Below are positions 7,462-23,582 of a stretch of DNA of 27,252 nt, one piece after another. How positions within the stretch are numbered: position 1 is the first letter of the stretch; each line of letters starts with the position of its first letter. The translations under genes were made by a program, and so were the position numbers. Origin of the DNA: a virus; the IMG/VR virus record IMGVR_UViG_3300027899_000057, positions 1 through 27,252 of that record; one strand, given 5' to 3'. The notes under the pieces were generated by a model. That model saw only the letters and a list, made by a program, of their open reading frames with translations, made no database searches and was not told the DNA's origin.

Positions 7462-9003
7462 TTACCGCGAAAGCAGATTGTTGTGCACGCTCTTGACGGT
7501 ATTGCCGCCCTTCCGTGCACCTTCACGTGCAATCCACAGCGCCATCAAGCTATCACCCGTGTGCTGCTCAGGATCGTAGTACAGCAGTTGCTGAATAAGC
7601 TCGCGGACTTCTGGATCAACATCAGTACCATCGCGACCTGACGGAATAATCCACTTACCGCTAGCAAATTCAGCAGCCAATGATTCAACGCCAAATACCG
7701 GGTCATTCTTATTGCGGCCAGTTTCAAACGTGTACACTGGTACAATGGTGCCATCAGTAACGTCATTGTTGATTAGGTCAGCAAACAGCTTCTGCGTTGC
7801 GTTACCTTCAACATAGACAATGCTCATCATGTTTCTGGCAGTCAGTCGGATTTTGCGCATAAGCTCAATACCCGGCATACGACCACCCTGTGCATTGATG
7901 ATTTCTCTATCACCATTTGAGTACACGGCAATAGTCATCAAAACAGACCTACCACCAGTGGTACGCAATGATGCACCAATATCTACGCCTGTGTACACAC
8001 GACAACCGGGCGGCACAGCATCAAGCCGCTGGCGCATGTAGCGGCCCTTACCACGCAGAATTGCAGCGTTAATCCATTCTTCCTTGAAGCGTGCTTCAGT
8101 GTTTGAACGGGCTACGCACATCATCTGGCGTGCGAATTCAACCTCACCAATTTCTGCACGTTTGCGTTCAATACGTTCCTGTGACCAGCGCTCAGGCCAC
8201 AATGACTTGCCAGTGAAATCAGTGATTGGATAGCGCTTTGAAATGTATCCGGGGCGAGAAGCAAGAAAATGCATCAGGTCATCGGGATGGTACGCATTAC
8301 CAACCACAACGACACGCGACTTATCGGTAACACGACCAAGCAACGTAGACACAACCCAATCAATTGTCTTTTGACGCAATGCTGGCGTGCGCGTATTTTC
8401 CCACGTCAGTACGTCATCAAGAATGAGCAAGTCAATACGTGCACCAAGAATTGAACCAAACAAACCGATGCTTTGAAACTGCGGGTCTTTGGCTGGCGTA
8501 TCACGTTTGAGTTTCAGCGCCTTGGAAGTCCACGGCGTTTGCGGGATAATGCCCGGAAACGTATCACGAAACGCCGTGGACTTGCTCATGTATTCGCCAA
8601 CAGTACCAAGAATCTTTGACGACAGTGATCCAGTGCTGGATACAACTACGCAACGAAGATTGGTATTGCAAGCGATTTCATACATGCTACGGGCAATACT
8701 GATTTGGAAAGTTTTGCCAGATTCAACGTGCCCCCAAATGATTGAACGCCTATGTTCTGAGATAAGGTCTTGCCATTCGTTGTGGTATTGTGACATGACC
8801 ACAGGATTGCCAGTTTCCTCATCGCGTAACACGTGGCGAATGAACCACTTAGGGTCTGTTCGTGCCACTACACAACGTGCTGCATACTGCTGGTGCGCCA
8901 GCCGTGTTGCGTCAATACCAAGGTCTTCAAGACCGCGCTTTAATGCGTTAGCACCTTGCTTGGTAGTATTGTCCGTTCTGTAGTCACGAAGTGTGCGAGC
9001 CAT
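7462..9003 (-). CDS. terL: Large terminase subunit
   Basis: This encodes a 513-residue DNA-packaging motor. The ATPase has a variant Walker A GHVESGKT (91-98) and Walker B LLILDD (192-197), with coupling motif VVVVGNAYHPDD. The RNase H-like nuclease has the acidic residues D341 in TGVDIGAS, E399 in YVEGN and D484 in TGDSLMALW. Length and order fit TerL, which cuts concatemers and pumps DNA into the procapsid. ATG 9003 follows GAGGA and overlaps the preceding stop by one base (TAATG), consistent with a TerS-TerL pair. The packaging strategy cannot be read from this. Confidence 0.95.
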   Translation of the reverse strand: MARTLRDYRTDNTTKQGANALKRGLEDLGIDATRLAHQQYAARCVVARTDPKWFIRHVLRDEETGNPVVMSQYHNEWQDLISEHRRSIIWGHVESGKTFQISIARSMYEIACNTNLRCVVVSSTGSLSSKILGTVGEYMSKSTAFRDTFPGIIPQTPWTSKALKLKRDTPAKDPQFQSIGLFGSILGARIDLLILDDVLTWENTRTPALRQKTIDWVVSTLLGRVTDKSRVVVVGNAYHPDDLMHFLASRPGYISKRYPITDFTGKSLWPERWSQERIERKRAEIGEVEFARQMMCVARSNTEARFKEEWINAAILRGKGRYMRQRLDAVPPGCRVYTGVDIGASLRTTGGRSVLMTIAVYSNGDREIINAQGGRMPGIELMRKIRLTARNMMSIVYVEGNATQKLFADLINNDVTDGTIVPVYTFETGRNKNDPVFGVESLAAEFASGKWIIPSGRDGTDVDPEVRELIQQLLYYDPEQHTGDSLMALWIAREGARKGGNTVKSVHNNLLSR

Positions 9004-9764
9004 TATTCTTCCTCAGAGTCTTCGCCAGCTTCAATGGCAATCAAATTGTTGCCGTGTTCCAGCGCTTCATGCAGAGTATCGCGGATACCATGTAAAGTTG
9101 CAATAGCTTCTTCATGGCTCATGTTGCCGCCAACACCACCACTCATATCATCAGGTTCGCCAAGCACACGCCGTTCAATAGCAATTGAACGCTCTGCAAT
9201 ACCGATAGCTTGGTCTGACAACACGCCAATCTTTGCCATCAGTTGCAAAGTATCATGCAGGTCAAGCTCTACGCCCATTGTAGACATACGCTCAATCTGC
9301 AAAATTGCCTTGTTTACCAGCGGCTCAATTGCCCGGTTAAGCTTCTGTGTTCGTGATAGCAGCGTAAGCGCATGGTTGCGCGTACTTTTTACCATCAAGC
9401 CTTCTTCTCTACGTGCTGCAATCACATCATTTCTAGCAGCAGCAATTTCATTATCGGAAGGTGGCGGAACTGATTGACGCAGACCCGTAACCTGTATTTG
9501 GTTTTGGGGTGCATTCGGGGTGGCTGTCGTGATCGCGAGCGCGTCATTTCTGGCGGCTGCACGCGCTTTGACCTTATCTTCCTTGATCACTTTTTCAATT
9601 GGCTTCGCCCAAGCTATGCTAGGCCAACCTTCCTTATAGGCACGCCATGCTACTTTAGGCGAAACACCTACTGCTTCTGCGGCTTTACGGTAGCCCATTT
9701 GCCCATCGCGCATTGCTTCTAACAATGCGGTGTACTGCACTTTTGTAATCGTCGGATCTAGCAT
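9003..9764 (-). CDS. Putative small terminase subunit
   Basis: This encodes a 253-residue protein from ATG 9764 behind AGAGGA. Residues about 10-50 contain a helix-turn-helix (YRKAAEAVGVSPKVAWRAYK), typical of DNA-recognising TerS. A long central helical part (IAAARNDVIAARREEGLMVK through about 200) would suit ring assembly, and the end is acidic (AGEDSEEE). It ends at the start of TerL with a one-base overlap, the usual arrangement of the pair. It is somewhat longer than many TerS proteins. The role is inferred from the motif and the neighbour. Confidence 0.7.
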   Translation of the reverse strand: MLDPTITKVQYTALLEAMRDGQMGYRKAAEAVGVSPKVAWRAYKEGWPSIAWAKPIEKVIKEDKVKARAAARNDALAITTATPNAPQNQIQVTGLRQSVPPPSDNEIAAARNDVIAARREEGLMVKSTRNHALTLLSRTQKLNRAIEPLVNKAILQIERMSTMGVELDLHDTLQLMAKIGVLSDQAIGIAERSIAIERRVLGEPDDMSGGVGGNMSHEEAIATLHGIRDTLHEALEHGNNLIAIEAGEDSEEE

Positions 9765-9811: not shown

Positions 9812-10663
9812 TTACTCTTTGAGCACTCGACGTGCCAGAGGAAATACTGTAGCAGCTTGTTCAACGACAGCAACGTCGCAAAAATCGCGCATGATACGCC
9901 AAGCGTTTAGTGGGTCTGAATCTGCGGCGGCGCGGGGAAGCCACTGGTGCCAGCCCTCAGTTGTGCCGTAGATTATACCAATGGGATTGTCGGCGTGGCC
10001 ATAGGTATAAGGCGGGTACAGCCCAAGCTTATACTGTTGCATGTACGCAAAGACTTCTGAAGTAGACCAATCGAAAATCGGGTTGACGCGAGCCATACCA
10101 GACTTGACAGTATAAGAACCACCAGCACCGACGCTGTTGCCGCCAACAATTTTGGTGCCATCATTGCTGAGAACTTTACCGTCACGAGAACGCCTGCCGA
10201 AAACAATGCCAGCGCAACGATGATTTTTGGCGTACGCATCTTGCAGCCGCCATTTCTCACGGCGAACGAAATCTACTGACCTATCAGTAGACCAAAGCAT
10301 TGCAGGATTGCGTTGCAGCCAAGCAAAGTTCATCGGAACTCGCAGCACGTTTTCTTCTGCTACGTGCTGGTCAATGAATTCGTTGACGCTTGGGAACTCT
10401 AAATGGTTGGACACAATGAACGGCGGTAGACAGCCGCTGTGCTGGCGTGCAAGGTGCGCAATCACCTGTGAGTCCTTGCCGCCTGACCATGCCACAGCGA
10501 GCCGCCTGTGCTGCCTGACGGCTTCGTCAAGGCGTGCGTGGGCGGCAGCTACCTTGGCATCAAATGCAGGCGTACCAATCAGACTAACCGATTCATGGTA
10601 CATTTTCCAGTAGGCAGCGGACAATTTAAGCTGCTTAGCTTCATCAGGAAATAAGCCTTTCAT
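9812..10663 (-). CDS. PAPS-reductase-like PP-loop protein
   Basis: This encodes a 283-residue protein from ATG 10663 behind AGGTG. The PP-loop SGGKDS at residues 60-65 marks the adenosine nucleotide alpha-hydrolase / PAPS reductase family. Further family-like elements are FIVSNHLEFPSVNEFIDQH and, toward the end, NPIFDWSTSEVFAYM. True PAPS reductases reduce 3'-phosphoadenylyl sulfate, but phage and DndC-type relatives instead activate sulfur or other groups with ATP. The reaction here is unknown. It overlaps the nuclease-like gene by 20 bases and ends a cluster with a second PP-loop protein and two ParB-like proteins. Confidence 0.85.
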   Translation of the reverse strand: MKGLFPDEAKQLKLSAAYWKMYHESVSLIGTPAFDAKVAAAHARLDEAVRQHRRLAVAWSGGKDSQVIAHLARQHSGCLPPFIVSNHLEFPSVNEFIDQHVAEENVLRVPMNFAWLQRNPAMLWSTDRSVDFVRREKWRLQDAYAKNHRCAGIVFGRRSRDGKVLSNDGTKIVGGNSVGAGGSYTVKSGMARVNPIFDWSTSEVFAYMQQYKLGLYPPYTYGHADNPIGIIYGTTEGWHQWLPRAAADSDPLNAWRIMRDFCDVAVVEQAATVFPLARRVLKE

Positions 10664-11219
10664 TTAGAATCACCTGTAGCCTGTCTTTGGCTTTACGCTT
10701 CATATTATCCGTAACTGTTTCAAATCGGCCTGTGTCTGTGTCAAAGTGCACGTCAAAAAACGTGCGCCTAAGTGCTGACAAAAGAAATGCCTGCTCAGCA
10801 AGCGCAATTCTTGGATTTTTAGTGCGCCCATTCAGCAAAAAGTGATCCGTAGCGTCTAGTACTACATTACAGCGCCCACGCAACCCAACTTCAATTAAAC
10901 CCCAGCCTTGCGGAACTTTAGCGACGTTTATTCGCAAGCTTTCTGGCACCATGAAATAACGAAGGTCGCCGGGATGGTCTACAGAAGCTTCTATGTCGTG
11001 GATCATCTTGTGCCGGTCGGCAGCGAAATCACTTTTTGACACCTTGCATTCAACAAGTATTGATACAGCGGTATTTGGTCTAATTCTTGTTCGCCATTTC
11101 CAGCCAAGAGCATCTGGACTGTAACGGTGTCCCTCAAAGCGTGGCTCAGAAAAGTACACTTTACAGTCCTGCTTTTTAAGCCACTTTACAGCGCAAGCTA
11201 CAACTTCTGAGTGTGTCAT
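10644..11219 (-). CDS. PD-(D/E)XK-type protein (MmcB-like)
   Basis: This encodes a 191-residue protein from ATG 11219 behind AAGGT, with an ATGA overlap with the ParB-like stop. The N-terminal helix contains a Glu. A strand pair follows: YSPDALGWKW (PD at 35-36) and ILVECKVSKSDFAADRH (E57-x-K59), the core of the PD-(D/E)XK fold. The string ECKVSKSDFAADRH is very like the MmcB family, described as DNA-repair proteins, in which E-x-K-x-S-x-x-DF is conserved. It could cut or bind DNA. The C-terminal 60 residues are not recognised. The cluster context suggests it acts with the ParB and PP-loop proteins. Confidence 0.7.
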   Translation of the reverse strand: MTHSEVVACAVKWLKKQDCKVYFSEPRFEGHRYSPDALGWKWRTRIRPNTAVSILVECKVSKSDFAADRHKMIHDIEASVDHPGDLRYFMVPESLRINVAKVPQGWGLIEVGLRGRCNVVLDATDHFLLNGRTKNPRIALAEQAFLLSALRRTFFDVHFDTDTGRFETVTDNMKRKAKDRLQVILNERLIS

Positions 11220-11776
11220 TTTACCTTAGTACCATATGTTGCTTTTTTCTTGTTGGACCGCGAAGCCTTACTCAAACCCTCGCGGGTAGGCACCCAACCG
11301 GCACCAAAGCTGTCCTGCCCCATCAATTCTGGATTGCCACGCAATTCTGATAGGCGTTCCTGTTCTTCAGCTTCCATACCCAAACGATTCTCAATTTGGT
11401 CTTCCGTAAAACCAGCACCTTGAAGCTCGCGTACAATGTTACCCATTGCAAGAATACCGTGGCTACCACGTGCACGATTGTGGCGCACAGTAGAAAGCAT
11501 ATGGTCAATGCGAACCTTATTGCGCAGGATTACAACAGGAACCTGCCCACTGTGCAAGTCTTGTATTGCAGCATCGCGGCTAGCTAACGTCCAGCGGTGA
11601 AAGCCGTCAACAATCTCAAACTTTTCAGTCACCACAATAGGCTGTGTCCAACCGTCTTCAATGATTGACTGCTTTAGCAAGTCCATTTCCGGCCCAAATA
11701 CGTGATTTGGGTTGTAGTCATTGGCGTGCAGGTCTTCTGGATACATCCAAATAACCTTGTCAATTGGATTGCTCAT
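11216..11776 (-). CDS. ParB-like nuclease-domain protein (IbrB-like)
   Basis: This encodes a 186-residue protein. I chose ATG 11776, which overlaps the IbrA-like stop (ATGA). The frame is open further upstream, but only through that gene. Residues about 10-70 carry the ParB/Srx fold: LHANDYNPNHV, LLKQSIIEDGWTQPIVVT and DGFHRW (57-62). The remainder is helical with a basic end. A ParB-domain protein directly following a PAPS-reductase-like protein of the DUF3440 type is the known IbrA-IbrB arrangement. Some ParB folds bind CTP or act as nucleases or kinases; here the activity is unknown. Confidence 0.8.
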   Translation of the reverse strand: MSNPIDKVIWMYPEDLHANDYNPNHVFGPEMDLLKQSIIEDGWTQPIVVTEKFEIVDGFHRWTLASRDAAIQDLHSGQVPVVILRNKVRIDHMLSTVRHNRARGSHGILAMGNIVRELQGAGFTEDQIENRLGMEAEEQERLSELRGNPELMGQDSFGAGWVPTREGLSKASRSNKKKATYGTKVK

Positions 11777-12942
11777 TTCTTCACACCTTTGCTGCCAATA
11801 ACCTTGCGGTCTGACCACGCGCTGTCTGACATTGTTTCTTTGCGACGGCGTAAATCGCCACGGTAAGCAATCTGGTAAAGACGTTCCCAAGAAATCAACT
11901 CACCCTTTCCATAGTCAGGAATTGGAATGCCGATATTCTTCTTGAAATGCGTGCGAATAGCAGACTCGATACGCGCTGCCAGCTTGGCGCGGATATCGGC
12001 AGGATGGCGCTCAATTGCCTCACGAATCTGCGCTTGCCAGTAATCCGGCCCTGTACCTGCATGACTAGCTGCCGTGACGTTGTGCAGCCCGTACAGGGGC
12101 GACTCACTGTAGCGTGCAGCCGTGGCAGCGCCCGGTACACGCCGCAGCATCTTTTCCCAAATAGCAGGTTCAAGTAAACCGAAATACTTTAGCGCACGCA
12201 ATGGTTCTTCAGCAAATGGCGGCGAAATACGCTGCTTTGTTGGTGTGATACCAGCGCGAGTGTACTTGTCATAGATCACATTGTAATCCCAGCCAAACTT
12301 AGTCGGTGCCGTCCACACGTCGCCGACAAGCCAGTCATAGATAGGCTTGCACATTGTTACGTGCGGTGCATTGCTATCTGGTGCAAGCCAATTATCCTCA
12401 GTGCGCATAGATACCACGCGAAGACGGCGTAGTGACTCTTGCGCACGCAGACCGATAGCTACGCCATAGGATAGCGTTTTGTCCGGGAAAAAGAGATTAT
12501 TGGATTGGTATGCCGGTGCACGGTTGTTTGGGTCGGTAGGAAAATTCGCAATTTCTGTAATGCCTTCGGGCGGCATAGGACGGCACCACAAATGCTTTGA
12601 TTCCGGTGCCCACGGATACCAGTAAGGTTGTTTAGTGCTACATGCGTTACGGTTTTTGAAAGGCATACAGTACCAGCGAAGCGATACGTCTTTACGCTGT
12701 GAAATTCTGCGGACATACTGTACCGTGTCATCCCAAATACCTTCCTCATCATAGAATACCACGTCTACTGGCCCATAGCCGATACGATTGGCTTCTTCTA
12801 GGACAAGGTTAAGAACAGCCGTGCTGTCTTTACCGCCAGAAAACAGCACAGATACCACGTCAAAGCGCGTGAACATATCTGCAACGCGTTCACGTGCCAA
12901 CTCGTATGTAGTCTTCTCTACAAACTTTTTCTTAAGTACCAC
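11773..12942 (-). CDS. PAPS-reductase-like protein (IbrA / DUF3440-like)
   Basis: This encodes a 389-residue protein. I chose GTG 12942, with AGGTG seven bases upstream and one base after the previous stop; an ATG at 12972 adds ten residues but has a poor ribosome binding site. The PP-loop is SGGKDS at 35-40 (VVSVLFSGGKDSTAVLNLV). It is followed by VDVVFYDEEGIWDDT, CSTKQPYWYPWAP and SYGVAIGLRAQESLRR. Large size and Trp/Cys content fit the DUF3440 branch (IbrA), a regulator partner of a ParB protein in enterobacteria. The PP-loop uses ATP to adenylate a substrate; the substrate is unknown. Confidence 0.85.
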   Translation of the reverse strand: MVLKKKFVEKTTYELARERVADMFTRFDVVSVLFSGGKDSTAVLNLVLEEANRIGYGPVDVVFYDEEGIWDDTVQYVRRISQRKDVSLRWYCMPFKNRNACSTKQPYWYPWAPESKHLWCRPMPPEGITEIANFPTDPNNRAPAYQSNNLFFPDKTLSYGVAIGLRAQESLRRLRVVSMRTEDNWLAPDSNAPHVTMCKPIYDWLVGDVWTAPTKFGWDYNVIYDKYTRAGITPTKQRISPPFAEEPLRALKYFGLLEPAIWEKMLRRVPGAATAARYSESPLYGLHNVTAASHAGTGPDYWQAQIREAIERHPADIRAKLAARIESAIRTHFKKNIGIPIPDYGKGELISWERLYQIAYRGDLRRRKETMSDSAWSDRKVIGSKGVKK

Positions 12943-12943
12943 G

Positions 12944-13207
12944 TTAGTGCACCTGTGCTGTTGAAAAACCATGATGGTCTAAAACCTGCTCGACCACAGC
13001 AACCAAATCATGTGACAGTTGATGGTCCGCACGTGCGCTGACCATGATTGCCCAGCCTTCGTGTGTGGTATCCTTGTCGGCACCTTCAACTGTGTAGTTG
13101 ACAGATACACGACGACAAATCACACCTTTGACGCGCATGTCATCAATCAGGTCACATAGCCCACTACAGAAGTCACTGCTTGGTTCTTGCAGGTCAAACA
13201 CACTCAT
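12944..13207 (-). CDS. Hypothetical protein
   Basis: This encodes an 87-residue acidic protein from ATG 13207, which overlaps the bicupin stop (ATGA). It contains LDDLID-like helices near the N terminus (FCSGLCDLIDDMRVKGVICR) and a central beta pair (VSVNYTVEGADKDTTHEGWA). Four residues form a possible Cys pair, but there is no standard metal motif. It lies between the bicupin and the IbrA-like gene with no spare bases, so it is probably part of that pathway. Family not recognised. Confidence 0.7.
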   Translation of the reverse strand: MSVFDLQEPSSDFCSGLCDLIDDMRVKGVICRRVSVNYTVEGADKDTTHEGWAIMVSARADHQLSHDLVAVVEQVLDHHGFSTAQVH

Positions 13208-13905
13208 TTACCACCACCGTGCTTGATGTACGTACGGTTAATCATGGGGTGATTGTCGTCAGTCGGACCAGTATTGCTGTCTGGATGGAAAGCAATAATA
13301 TCCATCGTTGCACCATCAATGTCAGTGCGAAAGCTATGCCGTTCCTGTGGCGGAATGACAAATGCTATACCGGGACGCAGTTCAATTTCCCAAGTATTTC
13401 CGGTATCATCGCAGTACGCACGGCCCTCACCAGCAACCACCAGCCCAAGGCGGATAGTGGGGTGAATGTGCTGCGTTTGCAGAATACCGATAGGAAAATG
13501 AAGGTGATTCAAGCACGCATCGCCAGCACGCGGTGGCGGGATAAGCACAGTATCACTGCAACCATCAATGTATGACAGACGGCCAATTTCTTCACGCACT
13601 GAAAACATTTCAAGCGGATTGAAACCATAGCGGAAAAACAGCACAACTGCGGTGTTGTCATGTAGTGCCATAATGTGCGCGCCAACACCAACAACAAAAC
13701 ACGCACCTTCATTAAGTTCATGTGTGCCATTGATAGTAGACACGCGCGCTGGACCGCCGTACACATAGCCGTACACAGCAGCAATAACAGTAACTGTAAG
13801 TTGCTGTTTGCTAGTTACAAGATGCATCGCTGTTGGGTAAAAGTCACGCTCAAACCGACACAGCGTGTCATTGCTATGCGCAGCAGTAATGTCAAATGAC
13901 CGCAT
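13204..13905 (-). CDS. Bicupin-fold protein
   Basis: This encodes a 233-residue protein from ATG 13905 behind GAGGA, one base after the ParB-like stop. The second half is a clear cupin: HLHFPIGILQTQHIHP, then GLVVAGEGRAY and IELRPGIAFVIPPQERHSF, with several possible metal ligands. The first half has a cupin-like rhythm (GTHELNEGACFVVGVGAHIM) without the His pair, so a two-domain protein with one metal site is likely. Cupins include dioxygenases, isomerases and binding proteins; the reaction is unknown. It is embedded in the ParB/PP-loop cluster and may act on the same substrate. Confidence 0.8.
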   Translation of the reverse strand: MRSFDITAAHSNDTLCRFERDFYPTAMHLVTSKQQLTVTVIAAVYGYVYGGPARVSTINGTHELNEGACFVVGVGAHIMALHDNTAVVLFFRYGFNPLEMFSVREEIGRLSYIDGCSDTVLIPPPRAGDACLNHLHFPIGILQTQHIHPTIRLGLVVAGEGRAYCDDTGNTWEIELRPGIAFVIPPQERHSFRTDIDGATMDIIAFHPDSNTGPTDDNHPMINRTYIKHGGGK

Positions 13906-13906
13906 G

Positions 13907-14650
13907 TTAATCCTCATCCTCGTCTTCGGTAGTTTCTTCGTCAGTAGTGCCAACATTACCCATGTACAAATCACACAGGAACATCAATGCATCTACGTTT
14001 TTCTTGACACCAGTTTCACGCTGCTGCACAGCGCGCAAAGCCTGCGTGACCTTTTTGCGGTCAGACGGAATCAGGTTGAACGTCAGTGGCACAGGCGTTT
14101 CTTCAGCGTCGTCAGCATCGGCATCGCTAGGTTCAATACCTTCATCGCCGTCAAAACCACCCTCATCAGCACCGCTAACATTGCTGTCTTGGTATTCTTC
14201 AAGAAAGCCAGTACTCAAATCCTTGAACACGTCAAGTTCGTCGTGGCGCATACCTGACACGTCGGCAATCCATTCAAGCTCACCGCCAAGGGCTTGCGTG
14301 TCTTTGATATACTGTTCAAGTTCGTCGGCTTTCCATTCTGCGCCAATACGATTCAAACCAAGCGCGAGCGTACGAGCCTGCACTTCGTCATCAACGTCAA
14401 CAATGATTGACGGAATCTTTGTTTCACCAGCATCCAGCATGGCTTGCAAGCGATGGTGTCCGTTCAGCACTTCGTAACCATCATCGGTCATACGCACGAT
14501 AATCGGTTCAACAAAGCCCACAGTGGAAATACTAGTTTCCAACATGCGGGCCATTTCATCGTCCATAGCTCGCGGATTACCACCGTGGAACTTGACGATC
14601 TTGTCAACGTTGATTTGCTTGTAACCGACAATACGATTCTGGACTGCCAT
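13907..14650 (-). CDS. ParB-like nuclease-domain protein with acidic C terminus
   Basis: This encodes a 247-residue protein from ATG 14650 behind AAAGGTG. An in-frame upstream start at 14674 would overlap the preceding small gene. The ParB fold covers residues about 8-100: INVDKIVKFHGGNPR, ISTVGFVEPIIVR and VLNGHHRLQAML (GHHR at 64-67). A helical region and an acidic linker (DADADDAEETPVP) follow, then a second helical part and an acidic tail (TTEDEDED). It heads the ParB/PP-loop cluster. Other phage ParB-like proteins are methyltransferase partners or DNA-binding cofactors; here the role is unknown. Confidence 0.82.
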   Translation of the reverse strand: MAVQNRIVGYKQINVDKIVKFHGGNPRAMDDEMARMLETSISTVGFVEPIIVRMTDDGYEVLNGHHRLQAMLDAGETKIPSIIVDVDDEVQARTLALGLNRIGAEWKADELEQYIKDTQALGGELEWIADVSGMRHDELDVFKDLSTGFLEEYQDSNVSGADEGGFDGDEGIEPSDADADDAEETPVPLTFNLIPSDRKKVTQALRAVQQRETGVKKNVDALMFLCDLYMGNVGTTDEETTEDEDED

Positions 14651-14652
14651 GA

Positions 14653-14826
14653 CTAAACACCTTTCTTTGCGCATTCTTTACGCAAGTTGTGAGCAATACG
14701 CTCAAGTTTCTTTTCGCCACACATAGCCAATGGGATAGTATCGTCTGACGTTCTAGGCTGAACGCCTAGCCGCTTTGTCATGGCGATGATTTCAGAAATC
14801 AAACGGCCTTTGCTTACGTCACTCAT
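14653..14826 (-). CDS. Small basic protein in the recombination block
   Basis: This encodes a 57-residue protein from ATG 14826 to TAG 14653. It starts by overlapping the SbcC-like stop (ATGA) and ends two bases before the ParB-like ATG. The sequence begins MSDVSKGRLISEIIAMTKRL and has a helical, basic end (KKLERIAHNLRKECAKKGV). It contains two Cys but no clear metal motif. Being coupled on both sides is the main evidence that it is real. The family is not recognised. It may be a small helical DNA-binding or adaptor protein. Confidence 0.75.
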   Translation of the reverse strand: MSDVSKGRLISEIIAMTKRLGVQPRTSDDTIPLAMCGEKKLERIAHNLRKECAKKGV

Positions 14827-16607
14827 GCTGCCCCAAAGACAATGCGGTTAGCTGCTGGAATTTGCGACTCTAAATCGCGGCGATGCGTGATTACCATAAC
14901 CATGCGATCACTGGCAAGTTCTTCAATTGCTTCAATCACTGAGCGTGTACCACCCGCGTCAAGCGCATCAAAAACTTCGTCTGCAAACACACTCGCACCG
15001 TGTTGGCGCGCTGCACCAGCGACTACTTCTGATAGGGCAAACATGATCGCAATGTCCACACGCCGACGTTGACCGGCGCTGCACGACTTGTACGATTTGT
15101 CATCGCCGCTGCCAAGCACGCCAAGCAGAATAGAATCACCAGAAACTGACATATCAATTGACAGCTTATCGTCAGAGATACGCTTAATCCATCTATCCGC
15201 TGTTTGACCTAATGCAGCTACTGCGTCGTCAACAAGACGTGCACGTACACCTTTTGTACCAAGTACTTTCTCAGTAGTACGAAGCACGGCAACTGTAATT
15301 GCTTTTTGGTTGACTTCTTCAAGCTTGGCAGTTGCTTCAGCAGCAGCTTTTTTAGCTGTACGTTCAAGCGTATTACAGCGTTCCGCAAGCTGGTCAACGT
15401 TTGAACTGTCCGCTGGTGCTGACGCTAACAGCCTATCAAGTTGTGCTTTTAGTGAGTCTTTAGCGGCCTTTGCAGTAGACAGTTTTCTTTGCTGATTAGC
15501 GACAGTATTTGAAATAGTGTCCAATTCACGGATGCGTTGACGCATGGTGTGCAGCGCAGTATTGTGCTTGTCACAAGTTGAACGCACAGAATCGCGCGCA
15601 TTCAACAACTGCGTTTTGGCCTGCGATGCTTCAAGACGTGCATTTGATAGCATTTCAGCAGACGACATGCGCCATTCATCAGCCATAGGACGTTCGCAAG
15701 TAGGACAATTACCATCTTCAAATTGCTCAAATTGATGCTCTACGTTATTGCAGGTTGACTCAGCAACGCGAGCATCAGCAGTAAGTTGGTGTAAAGAACG
15801 CTCAGCAACCTTTACTGCGTTTTCTGCTTCACCAATTTTAGCCCACAAATCGGTGCGTTCTTCCTCGATAGACTCTTGGCTGCTGCCAGTATCATCATCC
15901 AGCAGCGCGGCGTAGTCAGCCTTGGCGTTTTTGAAGCGCAACCGGGCCTGTGTGACCTGTTCTTCATGCGCAGCAGCAGCGTTGGCTACTTCGTCAATTG
16001 CACGCAGCAGAGCGCGGTGTGCTTCGTCTGCGCGGGCATTCGCTGCCGCGTGGGTTGCCTGCGCAACTGCCGCTGCCGTAGTTGCAGCACTCACGATACT
16101 TTCAGCAGCTTTGATATCAGCGCGGCAACTATCCAATGCAACATCAAAAGCGTCCAAGCCAAGTACTGCTTCAAATGTGCGCTTTCGTTCTGCATCTGTA
16201 GCAGCGGTAAACTTGGTAGCATCATCGGAAGCCAACACTGAACTACGAAGCCACATATCATAGCTTGGCAGAATCTTGTCAAGTTCTTCCTGAGCTTTTT
16301 GTGCCGTGTCGTATTCTACGTCGTTGATTAGTACAGTCATTTTCTTGCCGCGCTTGCGGTCACGAATGACGTTTAGCTTTTTGCCGTCAATTTCAACAGT
16401 AATTGCGACCATCGTGCCTTCGTCGCGGCTTGGGTCGGTGCCACGCACAGTCTTGCCATACAAGCCCCATGCGATAGCTTCAATGATTGCAGTTTTGCCA
16501 GAACCATTTGGACCAGAAACAACTACAATGCCTTTCTCTGGAAATTTGACAGCCAGCTTCTTGTGCGCTGGTGTGAAGTTACTGGCAGTAAGTGAAATGA
16601 CACGCAT
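14823..16607 (-). CDS. SbcC/Rad50-like ATPase, T4 gp46 type
   Basis: This encodes a 594-residue SMC-like ATPase, partner of the following Mre11-type nuclease. Walker A is GPNGSGKT (32-39). A long coiled coil of about residues 160-450 is broken by the zinc hook CPTC (301-304). The ABC signature is SAGQRRR (510-516), and Walker B is VFADEVFDALD with D543 and E544. Size matches T4 gp46 (about 560 residues) rather than bacterial SbcC (about 1,050). The gp46/gp47 complex resects DNA ends for recombination-dependent replication. ATG 16607 directly follows the gp47 stop (TAGATG), with GGGGG upstream. Confidence 0.95.
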   Translation of the reverse strand: MRVISLTASNFTPAHKKLAVKFPEKGIVVVSGPNGSGKTAIIEAIAWGLYGKTVRGTDPSRDEGTMVAITVEIDGKKLNVIRDRKRGKKMTVLINDVEYDTAQKAQEELDKILPSYDMWLRSSVLASDDATKFTAATDAERKRTFEAVLGLDAFDVALDSCRADIKAAESIVSAATTAAAVAQATHAAANARADEAHRALLRAIDEVANAAAAHEEQVTQARLRFKNAKADYAALLDDDTGSSQESIEEERTDLWAKIGEAENAVKVAERSLHQLTADARVAESTCNNVEHQFEQFEDGNCPTCERPMADEWRMSSAEMLSNARLEASQAKTQLLNARDSVRSTCDKHNTALHTMRQRIRELDTISNTVANQQRKLSTAKAAKDSLKAQLDRLLASAPADSSNVDQLAERCNTLERTAKKAAAEATAKLEEVNQKAITVAVLRTTEKVLGTKGVRARLVDDAVAALGQTADRWIKRISDDKLSIDMSVSGDSILLGVLGSGDDKSYKSCSAGQRRRVDIAIMFALSEVVAGAARQHGASVFADEVFDALDAGGTRSVIEAIEELASDRMVMVITHRRDLESQIPAANRIVFGAA

Positions 16608-17663
16608 CTAAACCCCCAAATACTTTTTAGCGTGCGCCAATACTAACTCACGTGTCACGTTATCCGGCAGAGGCATCTTTGCAACAAAGGCATCAAGTTT
16701 TTCTGCCAGCGTTGTAGCAGACTTGGTAGCGAGCATTGCAGCAGCGGTAGCTTCACGCTGTTCGTCAACATTTTGTAGCACTTCAATGTACGGATTGTCG
16801 GATACGGCTGCGGTGACTTCGCGCAACTCAGACGTGCCCACTGTCATGCGACAGTATAATGGTGCGGATTCTGGATTAGTCCTAACCAGATCAGCGTGTT
16901 GCGCGAGTGAATCAACGACGACAAAACGCGGGCCGGGAATAGTAGCTATGGTAGATTTACCACCAGAATAGATAGCAATTCTACCGTAATCAAAGCCGGG
17001 ATTGTCAAAGCCAGTCGGGGTCAGCGCACCAATCTGGCAGATACGCTTGCTGTGCTGGTGAAACGAGTGCCAGTCGCCGCTATACCAGCGCTGGATACCG
17101 TGCGTGTCACACAATTCTTCAAGCAAGCGTGATTCAAATGCACCAGCCTGTTCACGTAGCCACGGCGGTGTGCTGCCGCCAATGATACCAAAGTGCGATA
17201 CCACAATCTTTATGCCAGAAACTGCGTTCAAGGTAAGGCGCAGTTTTTCCTCAGTGAAGTTAGGCGTAAATGGAATGAAAAGCACATCGCCAACTTTTGT
17301 GGCGTCCAAATACACGCTGCATGACGGATTGCTTCGCAGTACACCGATTGCATGACTCTCTGGTGCGGCAGCACTGTATTCATGGTTTCCAAGCAAGAAA
17401 TGGTAGTTCACTTCTTCATGTGTCATAAGTGCTGAAACTGCCAAGTCAATCAAGTGCGGTTCTGGCCGCAGGCTATCAAAGAAGTCACCAGCAAAGATTA
17501 CATCAAGCTCGCCATCGTAGTCATCGCGTGCATACGAGACTGCTGTGTTGATTGATGCAATGATTTGAGTAGCACGCTCGTTGCATCCAAAGCTATTTGA
17601 CTTACCGCCGAACCTACGATGATTGGCAAGGTGCACGTCACCGATAATGCAAATACGCTTCAT
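16608..17663 (-). CDS. SbcD/Mre11-like nuclease, T4 gp47 type
   Basis: This encodes a 351-residue metallophosphoesterase from ATG 17663, overlapping the recombinase stop (ATGA) with AAAGGTG upstream. The family metal-binding motifs are all present: GDVH (8-11), AGDFFD (58-63), GNHE (92-95), VSHFG (155-159) and GDWHSFHQH (196-204). With the SbcC-like ATPase it would form the end-resection nuclease that trims double-strand ends in phage recombination and replication. Length is close to T4 gp47 (339 residues). The two genes are adjacent without spacer, so equal expression is likely. Confidence 0.95.
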   Translation of the reverse strand: MKRICIIGDVHLANHRRFGGKSNSFGCNERATQIIASINTAVSYARDDYDGELDVIFAGDFFDSLRPEPHLIDLAVSALMTHEEVNYHFLLGNHEYSAAAPESHAIGVLRSNPSCSVYLDATKVGDVLFIPFTPNFTEEKLRLTLNAVSGIKIVVSHFGIIGGSTPPWLREQAGAFESRLLEELCDTHGIQRWYSGDWHSFHQHSKRICQIGALTPTGFDNPGFDYGRIAIYSGGKSTIATIPGPRFVVVDSLAQHADLVRTNPESAPLYCRMTVGTSELREVTAAVSDNPYIEVLQNVDEQREATAAAMLATKSATTLAEKLDAFVAKMPLPDNVTRELVLAHAKKYLGV

Positions 17664-19820: not shown

Positions 19821-20236
19821 TCGTTCAGTTCGTTACGGCGATTGGCCGCTAGCGTAACGAGCATATCTTTTTTGATTGATAAACTGACCAAACCATTCTT
19901 CAACAAAACGGAATCTGAATCAGCCTCAATTTCTTCCATGACGACGTTACCGTAACGCGGATCACCAGCGATGCGTGCCTTCACCATCGCCTCAGTGACC
20001 TTGCTACCGGATGCTTGTAGCATCTGCCGCACCTCAATGTCAAGCTCTGCGAGTACACGATCTTTGCGCACCTTGATTTCGTTGGAACGGCGCTGCGCTT
20101 CAGCATACGATGATGCTACGCGCATAAAATCTGCCGGTACACGGCGGCATTCCATATCAAGGTCATCTTCGTCAATGCTTGCATACGAACGCAGTTTGGA
20201 AATAGTGCTCTGAATACTGGATGGATTAGCGCTCAA
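19817..20236 (-). CDS. Small helical protein, possible UvsY-like recombination mediator
   Basis: This encodes a 139-residue protein. The only supported start is TTG 20236, which has a strong GAGGTG site four bases upstream; the first ATG lies 26 codons in. It is almost all helical (RVASSYAEAQRRSNEIKVRK), with a mid-protein SKVTEAMVKARIAGDP and a C-terminal SIKKDMLVTLAANRRNELNE. Length and helix pattern resemble T4 UvsY (137 residues), which loads UvsX onto gp32-coated DNA. The position between polymerase and ssDNA-binding protein genes supports this, but I see no decisive motif. Confidence 0.6.
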   Translation of the reverse strand: MSANPSSIQSTISKLRSYASIDEDDLDMECRRVPADFMRVASSYAEAQRRSNEIKVRKDRVLAELDIEVRQMLQASGSKVTEAMVKARIAGDPRYGNVVMEEIEADSDSVLLKNGLVSLSIKKDMLVTLAANRRNELNE

Positions 20237-23200
20237 GTTTCACCTCATTCATGCTTCCCCAGCTTTTACCAACTTTGCAGTCAGCAATAAGTGGGACGTT
20301 ACCGCTATACCATCCTTCCATGATCGGCGGGATGGCGGCTAGCAGTTGTGGTAGGGCAGACTCGTAAACTTCAAACAGCAACGAATCATGTACAGCAAGC
20401 ACAAGCTTGGCTTTGCACTTACTGGTACGCAGCCAATTTACTGATGCAGCAATTGACCGTGTGCAATAATCAGAGCCTGTTCCCTGCACAGGCGTATTGT
20501 ATGACGAACGCAAAGCGCTACTTGCAGACTCACTATCACTGCCAGCAATTTGCAGCATCGGACGACGCCGACCGGGCAGGCCATCCAAGTACGTGAACGC
20601 ATAGCCTGTCAGCGTAGTCTCACGTTCGCGTGCTGTAATCCATTTGGCAAGGCTAGGAAATGCACCAAAGATTGACGATTTGATTTTCTCAAGCACGCGT
20701 TCTTCAAGTCCTGTTTCTTCAGCCAATGAGCGAATGCTTTTACCATACAAAAGTGAGAAGTTAAACTGCTTGGCAGCATCGCGCTCTGGACCGTCTTTGG
20801 TGATATCCTCAGCACGTTTGCCCCACACGATAGGCGCAATCAATTGCGCTGTACGAAAGTGGTAGTCAACACCGCTTAAGAAAATCTCTGTCATTGCCAC
20901 GTCGCCAGACAACATAGCAGCGACACGCAATTCTAGCTGGCTGTAGTCAAACTCAACCAATACCCTGCCAATTCCTGCGCAGAATAGATCACGTACCTGC
21001 TTACCCAGCAGTGTTTTGGCGCGAGGAATATTTTGCAGGTTTGGATTTACGCAGTTATGCGAAAAGATACCACTAGTTTCATAGCTATGGTCTTCTTCAA
21101 CACTTAAGTCATAGACCTCATGGCTGCCGCTAGCGTAGATCGCTTTAACATCACACCAACTGTGTCTTTGACCTGCAAAAAATGAACTTCCCGATGGCCC
21201 TTGTTCGTCACCAACGCAAGATTGTCCAATAAATTGTTCCGCGAATTCCCATCTATGTGGTGCACTACCATTGCCAGTGGCAGATCCTGTGGTTCCAGTC
21301 CCAGCGCCTGCGCCATGACCAGCCTGTGCACAAATACACGATGATCCTTGTGCAGACAAGTCAGGTAGCCGTAGCCATCCTCGCAAAGACCTATCCAATT
21401 GTGGTGGGCTTCGCCAGTTTTTCCGTGCATCGGATTTAGTGTACCCGTTTTCGCCACAGAGTACCGCATCGCCTGTAGTGCGCGCAATTCTGCTTCTGGC
21501 ATGTGCGCATTCAGAATGTGGCAGACATTCTGAAAACTCGTTTTCAGCATTGTTGCAACAGTCGCATACGTCGGAAGCGTTTGTAAATCCCTGTACGCTG
21601 CTAAAGTTGCTTTCACGTTCTGCGGATTTGACACCCATTTCTTTGAAACACTCATATACGTAATCCTCTGCGTGCACCCACTGGCCGGTGCTTAGCAGCA
21701 GCCGATGGTCGGCTGTGCACGTCAAAGTGTTCCCGTTTGCGAGAACGAAGTCAAGCGTTTCACGTGTACCATTGGACCAGTGCGCCGTTACCTGCCGCCA
21801 GCGATTCATATGCGTCCAGACATAATCACCGACTACCACAGAACTAATAGGCAACACACCACGTTTTGTTTTTACTGGCGTCCAATGCGCTACACAGCTT
21901 AGTCGGCCAGTTTCTGCGCCATCTAATTTCATATCTGGATGGATGCGCCCATCGCCACGAATAGCATCTAGGATACCATCGGCGTATGTGCTTTTCAACT
22001 TGCTGACCTTGCGGTACTCGCCAAGTGCTGACAAAAACGGATGATTGGTTGCAGCAATGAGTGCCTTCATTGCTTTCTTGTCTGTTGACCGCTTTTTCAT
22101 GCCCTTGTACTTAAGGCCAAGCTTGTCAAAGATTAGTGAGGCGATTTGCGGGTTTGAGTTAGGGTTTTCCAAACCGTAGCCACGCAGAACCTTGTACTGT
22201 GACTCGACTGACATTGCCAACTGCGCCTGCAACGCGACGACGCGGCCCCTGTCTACCGGTGCACCCCAGCGCTCAATCTGGCACAGGGCTTCCGTGGCAG
22301 GTTGCACAACCAGCGTGAATACGCGTGCTGATAGCTCATCAGTCTTCAGCAGTTCAATTTGACGTGCAGCTTCACGATTGGTAGCGAGAACATCGCGTGC
22401 ATTGTACAAGCGAGTGATGACAGGATCTGTCATGGCATAAGCATACCGCTTAGCGTCTGCACCATCTGGCAAATAGAACTTATCACCCCAAGGCGCATAC
22501 AGTACCTTGGCTTCTTTATTCTGTTGTTTGCGCAAACGACGAATGGTTGAATCTAATTCTTTGCCGAATTCATCCTTGAACCCGCCCATGCCAACCATGT
22601 AACTCAGCGCATTGAGTGTCGCACCGGCATCCGCACGAAGCAGCTTGCGTACCAAACGAGTATCGTAGTACACGCCGCCGCACACAATACCAAACTCACA
22701 AAATACAGCATTTACGTCTACCTTGATTGATTGCCCAATCTTGGGTGTTTGCTTCTTTAGCAGCTTAGTAACTACGCTAAGGATTTCGTCATCCTCTAAT
22801 GCTTGCCAGTCAAACGAATACACAATGTCACTGCGGAACGCTGACAAAGCTAGCAAAGAAATACGAAACTCTTTATCGTATGGTTGCCCAAAGTACTCAC
22901 AGTCAAATGTAAGTGCTTCAGCATCAGACATATCATCTAGTGCCATGTACGCTTTGTGTGGCGTATTGACAATGACAAGTTTAGCAGCAAGAAAGTCTGG
23001 CTTATGCGACGACGCAAATGCTTTGACAAGTTCAAGTGCTGTATGCTGCTGCCACAATTGATTTGACGCAAGCAGCCACATTGGCGGCATAACGTGAATC
23101 ACAGTGTTATCACGTAAGAAACTGTACCCGCCAATAGCATCATGTACAGGCACAGCTTCGCCAAACACAGCCATTGCAGCTTCTGGTCCGAACACGATAA

Positions 23201-23582
23201 TGCAATACGGTTTGACGGTATTGATTGTGTCAACCAAATACTGACGGCAATTGTCAGGGCCATGCTTGTCAGTGACGTACGCGCACCGTGTGGCCGCTGT
23301 GTAGACGACAGGGCGAGTAGTGGCGTCAGCTATCAGACGGCGGATAATCGCGCCCTGTGGGCCAACTGCGGTGGCACCGCGTGCATCATCCTGCGGGGTA
23401 ATCTCATCGACTACTACCAGTACGGCCTCACCATGCTCAAACTTGCGCGTGGCGCTAGCAGGAATACAGCGATTGATTACTGTACGCCCTTCATGCAGCT
23501 TACATAGCTGGCAATTATCGTCACGTTCTGACGGTGCAGTCGTGTCAATAGCTAGTAGTGGCCGTACTGGAAATAGGCTCAT
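20226..23582 (-). CDS. polA: DNA polymerase I with N-terminal UDG-like domain and intein
   Basis: This frame encodes 1,118 residues, or 837 after removing the intein (residues 563-843). Residues about 20-195 resemble family 4 uracil-DNA glycosylases: four Cys at 24, 27, 100 and 112 fit the iron-sulfur site, but the catalytic GE-x-PG motif is DEITP, so glycosylase activity is doubtful. The 3'-5' exonuclease starts at FDCEYFG (D227, E229), then IGQSIKVD and YNARDV. The polymerase has motif A VEFDYSQLELR (D879), motif B KQFNFSLLYG and motif C AVHDSLLFEV (H1065, D1066). All catalytic residues remain. Start ATG 23582 overlaps the previous stop (TAATG). It is the main replicative polymerase here. 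Confidence 0.95.
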   Translation of the reverse strand: MSLFPVRPLLAIDTTAPSERDDNCQLCKLHEGRTVINRCIPASATRKFEHGEAVLVVVDEITPQDDARGATAVGPQGAIIRRLIADATTRPVVYTAATRCAYVTDKHGPDNCRQYLVDTINTVKPYCIIVFGPEAAMAVFGEAVPVHDAIGGYSFLRDNTVIHVMPPMWLLASNQLWQQHTALELVKAFASSHKPDFLAAKLVIVNTPHKAYMALDDMSDAEALTFDCEYFGQPYDKEFRISLLALSAFRSDIVYSFDWQALEDDEILSVVTKLLKKQTPKIGQSIKVDVNAVFCEFGIVCGGVYYDTRLVRKLLRADAGATLNALSYMVGMGGFKDEFGKELDSTIRRLRKQQNKEAKVLYAPWGDKFYLPDGADAKRYAYAMTDPVITRLYNARDVLATNREAARQIELLKTDELSARVFTLVVQPATEALCQIERWGAPVDRGRVVALQAQLAMSVESQYKVLRGYGLENPNSNPQIASLIFDKLGLKYKGMKKRSTDKKAMKALIAATNHPFLSALGEYRKVSKLKSTYADGILDAIRGDGRIHPDMKLDGAETGRLSCVAHWTPVKTKRGVLPISSVVVGDYVWTHMNRWRQVTAHWSNGTRETLDFVLANGNTLTCTADHRLLLSTGQWVHAEDYVYECFKEMGVKSAERESNFSSVQGFTNASDVCDCCNNAENEFSECLPHSECAHARSRIARTTGDAVLCGENGYTKSDARKNWRSPPQLDRSLRGWLRLPDLSAQGSSCICAQAGHGAGAGTGTTGSATGNGSAPHRWEFAEQFIGQSCVGDEQGPSGSSFFAGQRHSWCDVKAIYASGSHEVYDLSVEEDHSYETSGIFSHNCVNPNLQNIPRAKTLLGKQVRDLFCAGIGRVLVEFDYSQLELRVAAMLSGDVAMTEIFLSGVDYHFRTAQLIAPIVWGKRAEDITKDGPERDAAKQFNFSLLYGKSIRSLAEETGLEERVLEKIKSSIFGAFPSLAKWITARERETTLTGYAFTYLDGLPGRRRPMLQIAGSDSESASSALRSSYNTPVQGTGSDYCTRSIAASVNWLRTSKCKAKLVLAVHDSLLFEVYESALPQLLAAIPPIMEGWYSGNVPLIADCKVGKSWGSMNEVKLER
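21104..21655 (-). CDS. HNH homing endonuclease, nested in the intein in another frame
   Basis: This encodes a 183-residue protein starting at ATG 21655, in the +1 frame relative to the polymerase and wholly inside the intein. The N-terminal half contains a helix-turn-helix-like stretch (YATVATMLKTSFQNVCHIL) and a NUMOD3-like motif (GTLNPMHGKTGEAHHNW). The C-terminal half is an HNH domain: FVHRLVMAQAL, VVHHIDGNSRNNLLDNLAL (H132, H133, N141, N145) and KGHREVHF (H154). This is the standard layout of free-standing phage HNH homing nucleases, which cut intein- or intron-less alleles. An internal ribosome site precedes it. It should be an independent polypeptide, not a spliced part of the intein. 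Confidence 0.88.
   Translation of the reverse strand: MSVSKKWVSNPQNVKATLAAYRDLQTLPTYATVATMLKTSFQNVCHILNAHMPEAELRALQAMRYSVAKTGTLNPMHGKTGEAHHNWIGLCEDGYGYLTCLHKDHRVFVHRLVMAQALGLEPQDLPLAMVVHHIDGNSRNNLLDNLALVTNKGHREVHFLQVKDTVGVMLKRSTLAAAMRSMT
21664..21669 (-). promoter_or_regulatory. Internal ribosome binding site for the nested HNH gene
   Basis: AGAGGA lies eight bases upstream of the nested ATG 21655, inside the intein reading frame. It is as good as the sites of the surrounding genes. It supports separate initiation on the polymerase mRNA. Confidence 0.6.

Follow-up and report, generated by a model that had tools for sequence, protein, structure and literature searches.

A set of five genes, encoding a ParB-like protein (ParB1), a bicupin, a PP-loop enzyme (PP1), a second ParB-like protein (ParB2) and a second PP-loop enzyme (PP2), is a conserved phage module that recurs in order across unrelated phages. 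It is described here in a stretch of 27,252 bases, the whole of IMG/VR virus record IMGVR_UViG_3300027899_000057, which is called the window below and may be a fragment. We see about an even chance that the five genes form a phage metabolite-activation and transfer system, whose target is most likely phage DNA. At the level of sequence and structural models, this proposal is supported by the gene identities, the intact PP-loop and ParB motifs, the bicupin fold, the conservation of the module and the swapping of genes at one slot, and also by the position beside the terminase genes, with replacement by ParB-methyltransferases in relatives.

Conservation of the module

The sequence-only reading had described seven adjacent leftward genes joined by ATGA or short overlaps. 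All seven open reading frames (ORFs) were confirmed and are tightly, translationally coupled, with 4-nt ATGA overlaps at three junctions (13207/13204, 11776/11773 and 11219/11216), overlaps of 20-29 nt at two others, and ParB1 and the bicupin nearly abutting. The ParB1 gene is real; the end that the sequence-only reading gave, 14650, is an internal ATG and the ORF runs to 14674.

Besides the window, 209 loci were collected by alignment-based IMG/VR scans with PP2 and PP1, by a bicupin scan and from phage records, with ORFs labelled by hidden Markov models (HMMs). A single-sequence PP1 scan of IMG/VR found nothing, whereas the alignment-based scans did find loci; a nucleotide search of phage records with the cluster gave no match. 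Dereplication at 75% PP1 identity left 99 loci with PP1, of which 96 carry ParB2, 69 ParB1, 42 PP2 (with more doubt over labels at low scores, about 115-160, as PP1 is recognised by the PP2 profile too) and 37 the bicupin. ORF calling simply took the longest ORF, and some loci are truncated. Fixed orders recur: PP1-ParB2 (19 loci), PP2-ParB1-PP1-ParB2 (19), ParB1-bicupin-PP1-ParB2 (18) and ParB1-bicupin-PP2-PP1-ParB2 (4), and the window's own order is also found in L090. The seven-gene order envisaged by the sequence-only reading was nevertheless too broad, as two of its genes lie outside the conserved unit. A PD-(D/E)XK-like gene (10644..11219, minus strand) and an 87-aa ORF without assigned function (12944..13207, minus strand) had no homologue by phmmer in the 209 loci, which reduces the conserved unit to five genes; on this sequence comparison we regard both as passengers. 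IbrA-IbrB pairs without ParB1 (L176-L210) form their own clade, rarely accompanied by any supply gene, and in 14 dereplicated loci such a pair lies near an SNF2-like helicase gene. An IbrA-IbrB pair is also carried by Streptococcus thermophilus phage CHPC877.

PP-loop enzymes, ParB proteins and the supply slot

The domains proposed from the sequence alone were recovered for the two ParB-like proteins (ParB_N in both), the two PAPS (phosphoadenosine phosphosulfate) reductase-like proteins (PAPS_reduct in both, with DUF3440 in the IbrA-like PP1) and the bicupin (a two-barrel model). PP1 (11773..12972, minus strand) is an IbrA-like PP-loop ATPase and a predicted adenylating enzyme, matching PAPS_reduct at 37.4 bits (cut-off 22.5) and DUF3440 at 36.7 bits (cut-off 25). 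Its SGGKDS motif and about 20 further residues are invariant or almost so over 160 sequences, and its model (pLDDT 87) most resembles FAD synthase, PAPS reductase and CysD in fold, with TilS also among the matches. PP2 (9812..10663, minus strand), a second PP-loop ATPase that is optional in the module, matches PAPS_reduct at 1.1e-10, and its family profile is best to CysD (5.5e-14); SGGKDS is intact and S60, G62, K63, D64, G156 and Y219 are invariant. Tandem PP1 copies also occur in one module, three in L074 (9121-13438) and two in L086 (11874-14140).

No PAPS-reductase (ECGxH), APS (adenosine phosphosulfate)-type or Fe-S cysteine pattern was found in any of the 160 PP1 or 68 PP2 sequences. 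The window PP2 has no cysteine conserved in its family, and PP1 has one (C102), which is alanine in some members. The missing PAPS-reductase and Fe-S patterns argue against sulfur chemistry and for adenylation. Adenylation folds are well supported for both enzymes, and adenylation would be the corresponding chemistry. The pathway that adenylates and transfers a group, proposed in the sequence-only reading, is thus the best reading, as judged by the intact SGGKDS motifs and by folds and profiles nearest to FAD synthase and CysD. The same reading had brought in DndC-type sulfur modification, which these data disfavour: TIGR03183 scored 20.8 against a cut-off of 290.4. As for CysH/PAPS reductase, the equivalog cut-offs were far from reached and the catalytic cysteine of ECGxH is missing. 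Auxiliary sulfur metabolism by a true PAPS reductase, or DndC-like DNA phosphorothioation, would fit the Pfam name PAPS_reduct and weak DndC and BrxP matches, but with no ECGxH or APS-type motif in 228 sequences, and with the CysH and DndC models far below cut-off, we consider it very improbable. The DndABCDE, Ssp and BREX type 4 phosphorothioation systems resemble the module in combining a PP-loop protein with a ParB-superfamily partner (DndB); in contrast to them, the module shows none of the DndC features and no recognised DndD/DndE pair, and no DndA/B/D/E neighbours were found among the annotated window genes.

A split, stand-alone class II glutamine amidotransferase (GATase) gene lies beside PP2 in L057, L069, L074, L101 and others, and the window carries none. 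By analogy with asparagine synthetase, which combines a class II GATase with a PP-loop part, PP2 and this neighbour would be the two halves of an asparagine-synthetase-like enzyme. Cellular bicupins are likewise found beside Asn_synthase genes. PP2 differs from asparagine synthetase in being CysD/PAPS-reductase-like and outside the Asn_synthase family.

ParB1 (13907..14674, minus strand) is a ParB/Srx-fold protein encoded on its own, of a type known from fusions with phage N6/N4 DNA methyltransferases; it matches ParB_N (4.7e-12), PHROG 620/498 and PADLOC MTase_II (2e-14). Its HMM matches the N-terminal ParB in the methyltransferases of Lagaffe, Shimadzu and nd4, with E-values of 1e-25 to 1e-32. 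ParB2 (11216..11776, minus strand) is an IbrB-like protein with a ParB_N domain, whose start ATG at 11776 overlaps the PP1 stop; it matches PHROG 2159 at 1.4e-61 and its DGxHR and NRARGxH motifs are invariant. A ParA/ParB partition system was rejected, since TIGR00180 reached 38.6 against 58.45 bits and no ParA was present among the annotated window genes.

PP1 and ParB2 together recall IbrA/IbrB (YbdN/YbdM of E. coli K-12), in which PAPS_reduct and DUF3440 also stand in one protein followed by an adjacent small ParB gene. The window's pair differs in its setting, an operon beside the terminase genes that also holds ParB1, PP2 and a supply gene. IbrA/IbrB-type genes are common in phages, where they are usually labelled as sulfur metabolism or prophage co-activators. 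IbrAB were reportedly first described as transcriptional co-activators and, to our knowledge, the pair has no known biochemical function. PP1 and ParB2 could accordingly be co-activators of phage or prophage genes, with the other genes unrelated neighbours; PP1 does meet DUF3440, ParB2 is the adjacent ParB, and the label in public annotation is 'co-activator of prophage gene expression'. The catalytic PP-loop residues, however, are almost invariant over the 160 sequences, and supply genes, PP2 and GATase would have no place in a purely regulatory system, so that we judge this explanation improbable.

The position of the bicupin in the window (13204..~13917, minus strand), between ParB1 and PP1, is one form of a swappable metabolite-supply slot, a feature that the sequence-only reading had missed. 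Besides the bicupin, the supply genes encode membrane proteins (an Na+:solute symporter or others), binding proteins (of the TctC or the sulfonate/taurine type), a small cupin, an aldehyde dehydrogenase and a glutamine amidotransferase. Such a gene was adjacent in 66 of 69 loci with ParB1 versus 4 of 30 without it (Fisher 1.6e-16). Loci from the bicupin scan were selected on the bicupin by design; the main statistic was therefore repeated on the PP1-scan loci alone, which were not, and gave 27/28 with ParB1 versus 3/28 without. Genes for proteins with multiple transmembrane segments lay directly beside the module in 21 of 26 cases, adjacent genes being 97 of 1096 overall (P 4e-19).

In related phages, these genes take one another's place at one operon position. 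A symporter gene stands directly before PP2 in many loci, as judged by neighbour clustering, and also in MT836198 and L002. Between ParB1 and PP1, we found a symporter in L137 and L150, a TctC solute-binding protein in L146 and L148, and a single cupin with an aldehyde dehydrogenase in L141; at the head of the operon stand other membrane proteins (L029, L072 and L085) or an ABC permease with an NMT1/SsuA-like binding protein (L041). L133 and L137 carry a bicupin and a symporter, respectively, in the same slot between ParB1 and PP1, with 71% identity in PP1, 63% in ParB2 and 64% in the terminase large subunit (TerL), and also share the upstream gene, ParB1 and the presumed terminase small subunit (TerS). 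Similarly, L138 (bicupin) and L146 (TctC) have sister PP1 sequences, and the bicupin loci L130 and L120 fall inside the symporter clade of a PP1 tree obtained by a quick search. SSF symporter and bicupin were never found together (0/19, P 4e-5), a result confounded by phylogeny that weighs less than the sister-pair swaps. The swappable slot is well supported, and this interchange suggests that bicupin and importers supply a substrate to the same engine.

As to the substrate, the closest solved relatives of the TctC-type proteins are BugD, Bug27 and terephthalate-binding proteins, and the slot-associated aldehyde dehydrogenase is aminobutyraldehyde-dehydrogenase-like. Together with the association of bicupin and PP-loop genes, these likenesses point to a carboxylate or an amino acid; the substrate is plausibly one of these or a carboxylate amide.

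The bicupin itself matches Cupin_2/AraC_binding and gives a two-barrel AlphaFold2 model (pLDDT 92.5), which resembles bicupin folds in PDB including ureidoglycine aminohydrolase (TM 0.68), BacB and AerE. Among 38 homologues, C116, D118, Q143, H146, H148, R152, H190, H207 and H219 are invariant, and the second barrel contains invariant histidines. No match was found in annotated phages and a single partial one in a plasmid. The gene is widespread in bacterial chromosomes (L216-L295), in Myxococcota, cyanobacteria, Lewinella and Methylococcales, often with asparagine synthetase and a zinc-ribbon/Toprim-like protein (TOP6A-Spo11_Toprim match). Of 67 bacterial contigs in which a bicupin was called, 35 encode an SGGxDS protein within four genes of it, and the SGGxDS proteins examined were Asn_synthase, with or without GATase. 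The motif was enriched close to cellular bicupins (44/468 near genes versus 14/554 far genes, P 1.6e-6). In marine phages with a bicupin and no PP1, the bicupin directly follows a QueC/Asn-synthase-like SGGIDS protein (L092:4651-8600, L104:6117-8618 and L087:6871-8603); in L092, a radical-SAM gene precedes the two. This marine arrangement is possibly a second modification pathway. Occurring beside Asn_synthase, QueC-like and module PP-loop genes, the bicupin appears to partner several PP-loop families. The module thereby offers a way into the study of this bicupin, which is widespread and uncharacterised in bacteria and is linked there to asparagine-synthetase-type enzymes.

Terminase neighbourhood and the probable target of the proposed reaction

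After the cluster, on the same strand, come a TerS candidate (9003..9764, minus strand), assigned by its position directly before TerL and with weak helix-turn-helix matches only, and TerL (7462..9003, minus strand), identified by tblastn to annotated terminase large subunits. TerL was recognised at most 5 kb downstream in 31 of 54 ParB1-containing loci with enough sequence (median distance 839 bases), versus 2 of 23 pair-only loci. We then compared phages related by TerL. The Faecalibacterium phages Taranis (FP_Taranis) and Pioen carry a membrane protein, ParB1, IbrA and IbrB before TerS, whereas Lagaffe, Shimadzu and nd4 carry at that place a DPPY-motif methyltransferase whose N-terminal ParB matches ParB1. 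The phage ParB-DNA methyltransferase genes thus share with the module the slot upstream of the terminase and the ParB family of ParB1, and differ in that PP1-ParB2 and a supply gene replace the methyltransferase. This position and this exchange make DNA the most likely target, as judged from gene order and sequence likeness. Modified DNA, one of the products suggested by the sequence-only reading, is favoured on these grounds and stays a prediction.

In the scheme that we propose, the adenylation chemistry, the substrate class, the order of steps, the DNA target and an anti-restriction role are predicted. A small molecule, most probably a carboxylate or carboxylate amide, would be made or imported by the product of the supply gene, which is the bicupin in the window and a symporter, solute-binding protein or another enzyme in other phages. 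In modules that have PP2, this enzyme may adenylate the supplied molecule and, with a class II GATase, an amide would be formed. PP1 and ParB2 would activate a substrate as an AMP ester and transfer the group to its target, the reaction being directed to DNA by ParB1. The likely outcome would be phage DNA modified just before packaging and resistant to host nucleases.

Several points weigh against this scheme. The product and every function in it are drawn from sequence and models. The slot comparison sets two phages with the module against three with the methyltransferase, and none of the five is closely related to the phage of the window. IbrA-IbrB pairs are often located elsewhere in genomes, near an SNF2-like helicase, and so need not be linked to packaging. 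Since GATase, PP2 and supply gene types vary between phages, several different chemistries may be involved. Finally, known base-hydroxylating or base-activating enzymes were not found: none of the Pfam-scanned window genes is of the base-hydroxylation, base-J, DpdA or hmU-kinase type, though the 27-kb record may hold only part of the genome.

The product could instead be a free small molecule or a modified nucleotide (an anti-defence decoy, a signal or a nucleotide-pool product), in which case the ParB proteins would be kinases or switches that bind NTPs, and PP1/PP2 would be adenylyltransferases. Both PP-loop enzymes resemble FAD synthase and CysD, whose substrates are small molecules, a metabolite-supply gene is almost always present, and the asparagine synthetase genes beside cellular bicupins have no evident link to DNA. 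Moreover, small-molecule enzymes are known among ParB-fold proteins, for which CTP, ATP or GTP binding has been reported (PMC12704722). The packaging-side location and the exchange with ParB-DNA methyltransferases nevertheless point to DNA, and two ParB proteins per module would be unusual for pure small-molecule synthesis; we therefore regard a free product as a serious but rather doubtful alternative. RNA could also be the target, for instance tRNA modified in the manner of TilS, TtuA or Ncs6 to escape host tRNA-cutting defences. TilS, TtuA and NcsA are indeed among the structural relatives of the PP-loop proteins, but no RNA-binding domain was found, ParB1 is of the DNA-methyltransferase-associated type and the module lies upstream of the terminase, which leaves an RNA target unlikely.

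Returning to a DNA product, we tentatively raise the further possibility that a family of phages decorates its DNA with environmental or on-demand metabolites, by one conserved PP-loop/ParB engine with interchangeable importers (Na+ symporter, TctC and sulfonate/taurine-type ABC proteins) or enzymes (bicupin, or aldehyde dehydrogenase with GATase). If so, a one-gene swap could change the chemical identity of the phage DNA coat. More generally, a product on DNA would represent a type of phage DNA modification that is supplied through its own transporter and whose chemistry depends on the occupant of a slot. Phages would thereby have a new way to hypermodify their DNA and to evade restriction and CRISPR. 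The module also gives IbrA/IbrB-type genes a testable biochemical role and a likely substrate class.

Related systems and neighbouring genes

The cassette seems undescribed, in line with the sequence-only reading, which did not recognise the combination as a described system. No description was found in the literature searched, where IbrA/IbrB appear only as annotations or co-activators; earlier ParB/Srx or base-modification work might mention parts of it. A 2025 ParB-fold survey makes no mention of PAPS, phosphosulfate or IbrB (PMC12704722). The E. coli regulator CitR represses ybdNM and has an effect on citrate lyase genes as well (PMC9068703). Near CmoX cytosine-modification genes, ParBc genes without an assigned role were reported in 2025, and CmoX/CmoY hypermodification converts 5-carboxymethylcytosine to a glycyl amide (PMC12783734). 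The likeness to the module lies in these nearby ParBc genes and in an AMP-forming enzyme that joins a metabolite to a base; in contrast, the annotated window genes include no CmoX, CmoA or AMP-forming ligase, and the module has PP-loop enzymes and slot transporters.

The PD-(D/E)XK-like gene had been called nuclease-like and MmcB-like. A PD...ECK (PD...ExK) motif is visible by eye, and the protein matches PHROG 631 (unknown function) and weakly PHROG 5429; with no match in PDB, the MmcB likeness was not confirmed. The window has tailed-phage gene content, all leftward: PolA, primase-like, gp32-like single-stranded DNA-binding protein (SSB), RecA/UvsX, SbcC/D-like, the cluster, TerS and TerL. 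Directly upstream of the module, an SbcC/SbcD-like pair occupies 14823-17663, in which an SbcC-like ATPase (14823-16607) is paired with an SbcD-like gene, followed by RecA/UvsX and the gp32-like SSB. The family A DNA polymerase (20226-23582) is split by a predicted intein (Intein_splicing match, residues 597-843). A tRNA-Leu gene (anticodon taa) lies at 958-1042 on the plus strand, opposite to the cluster.

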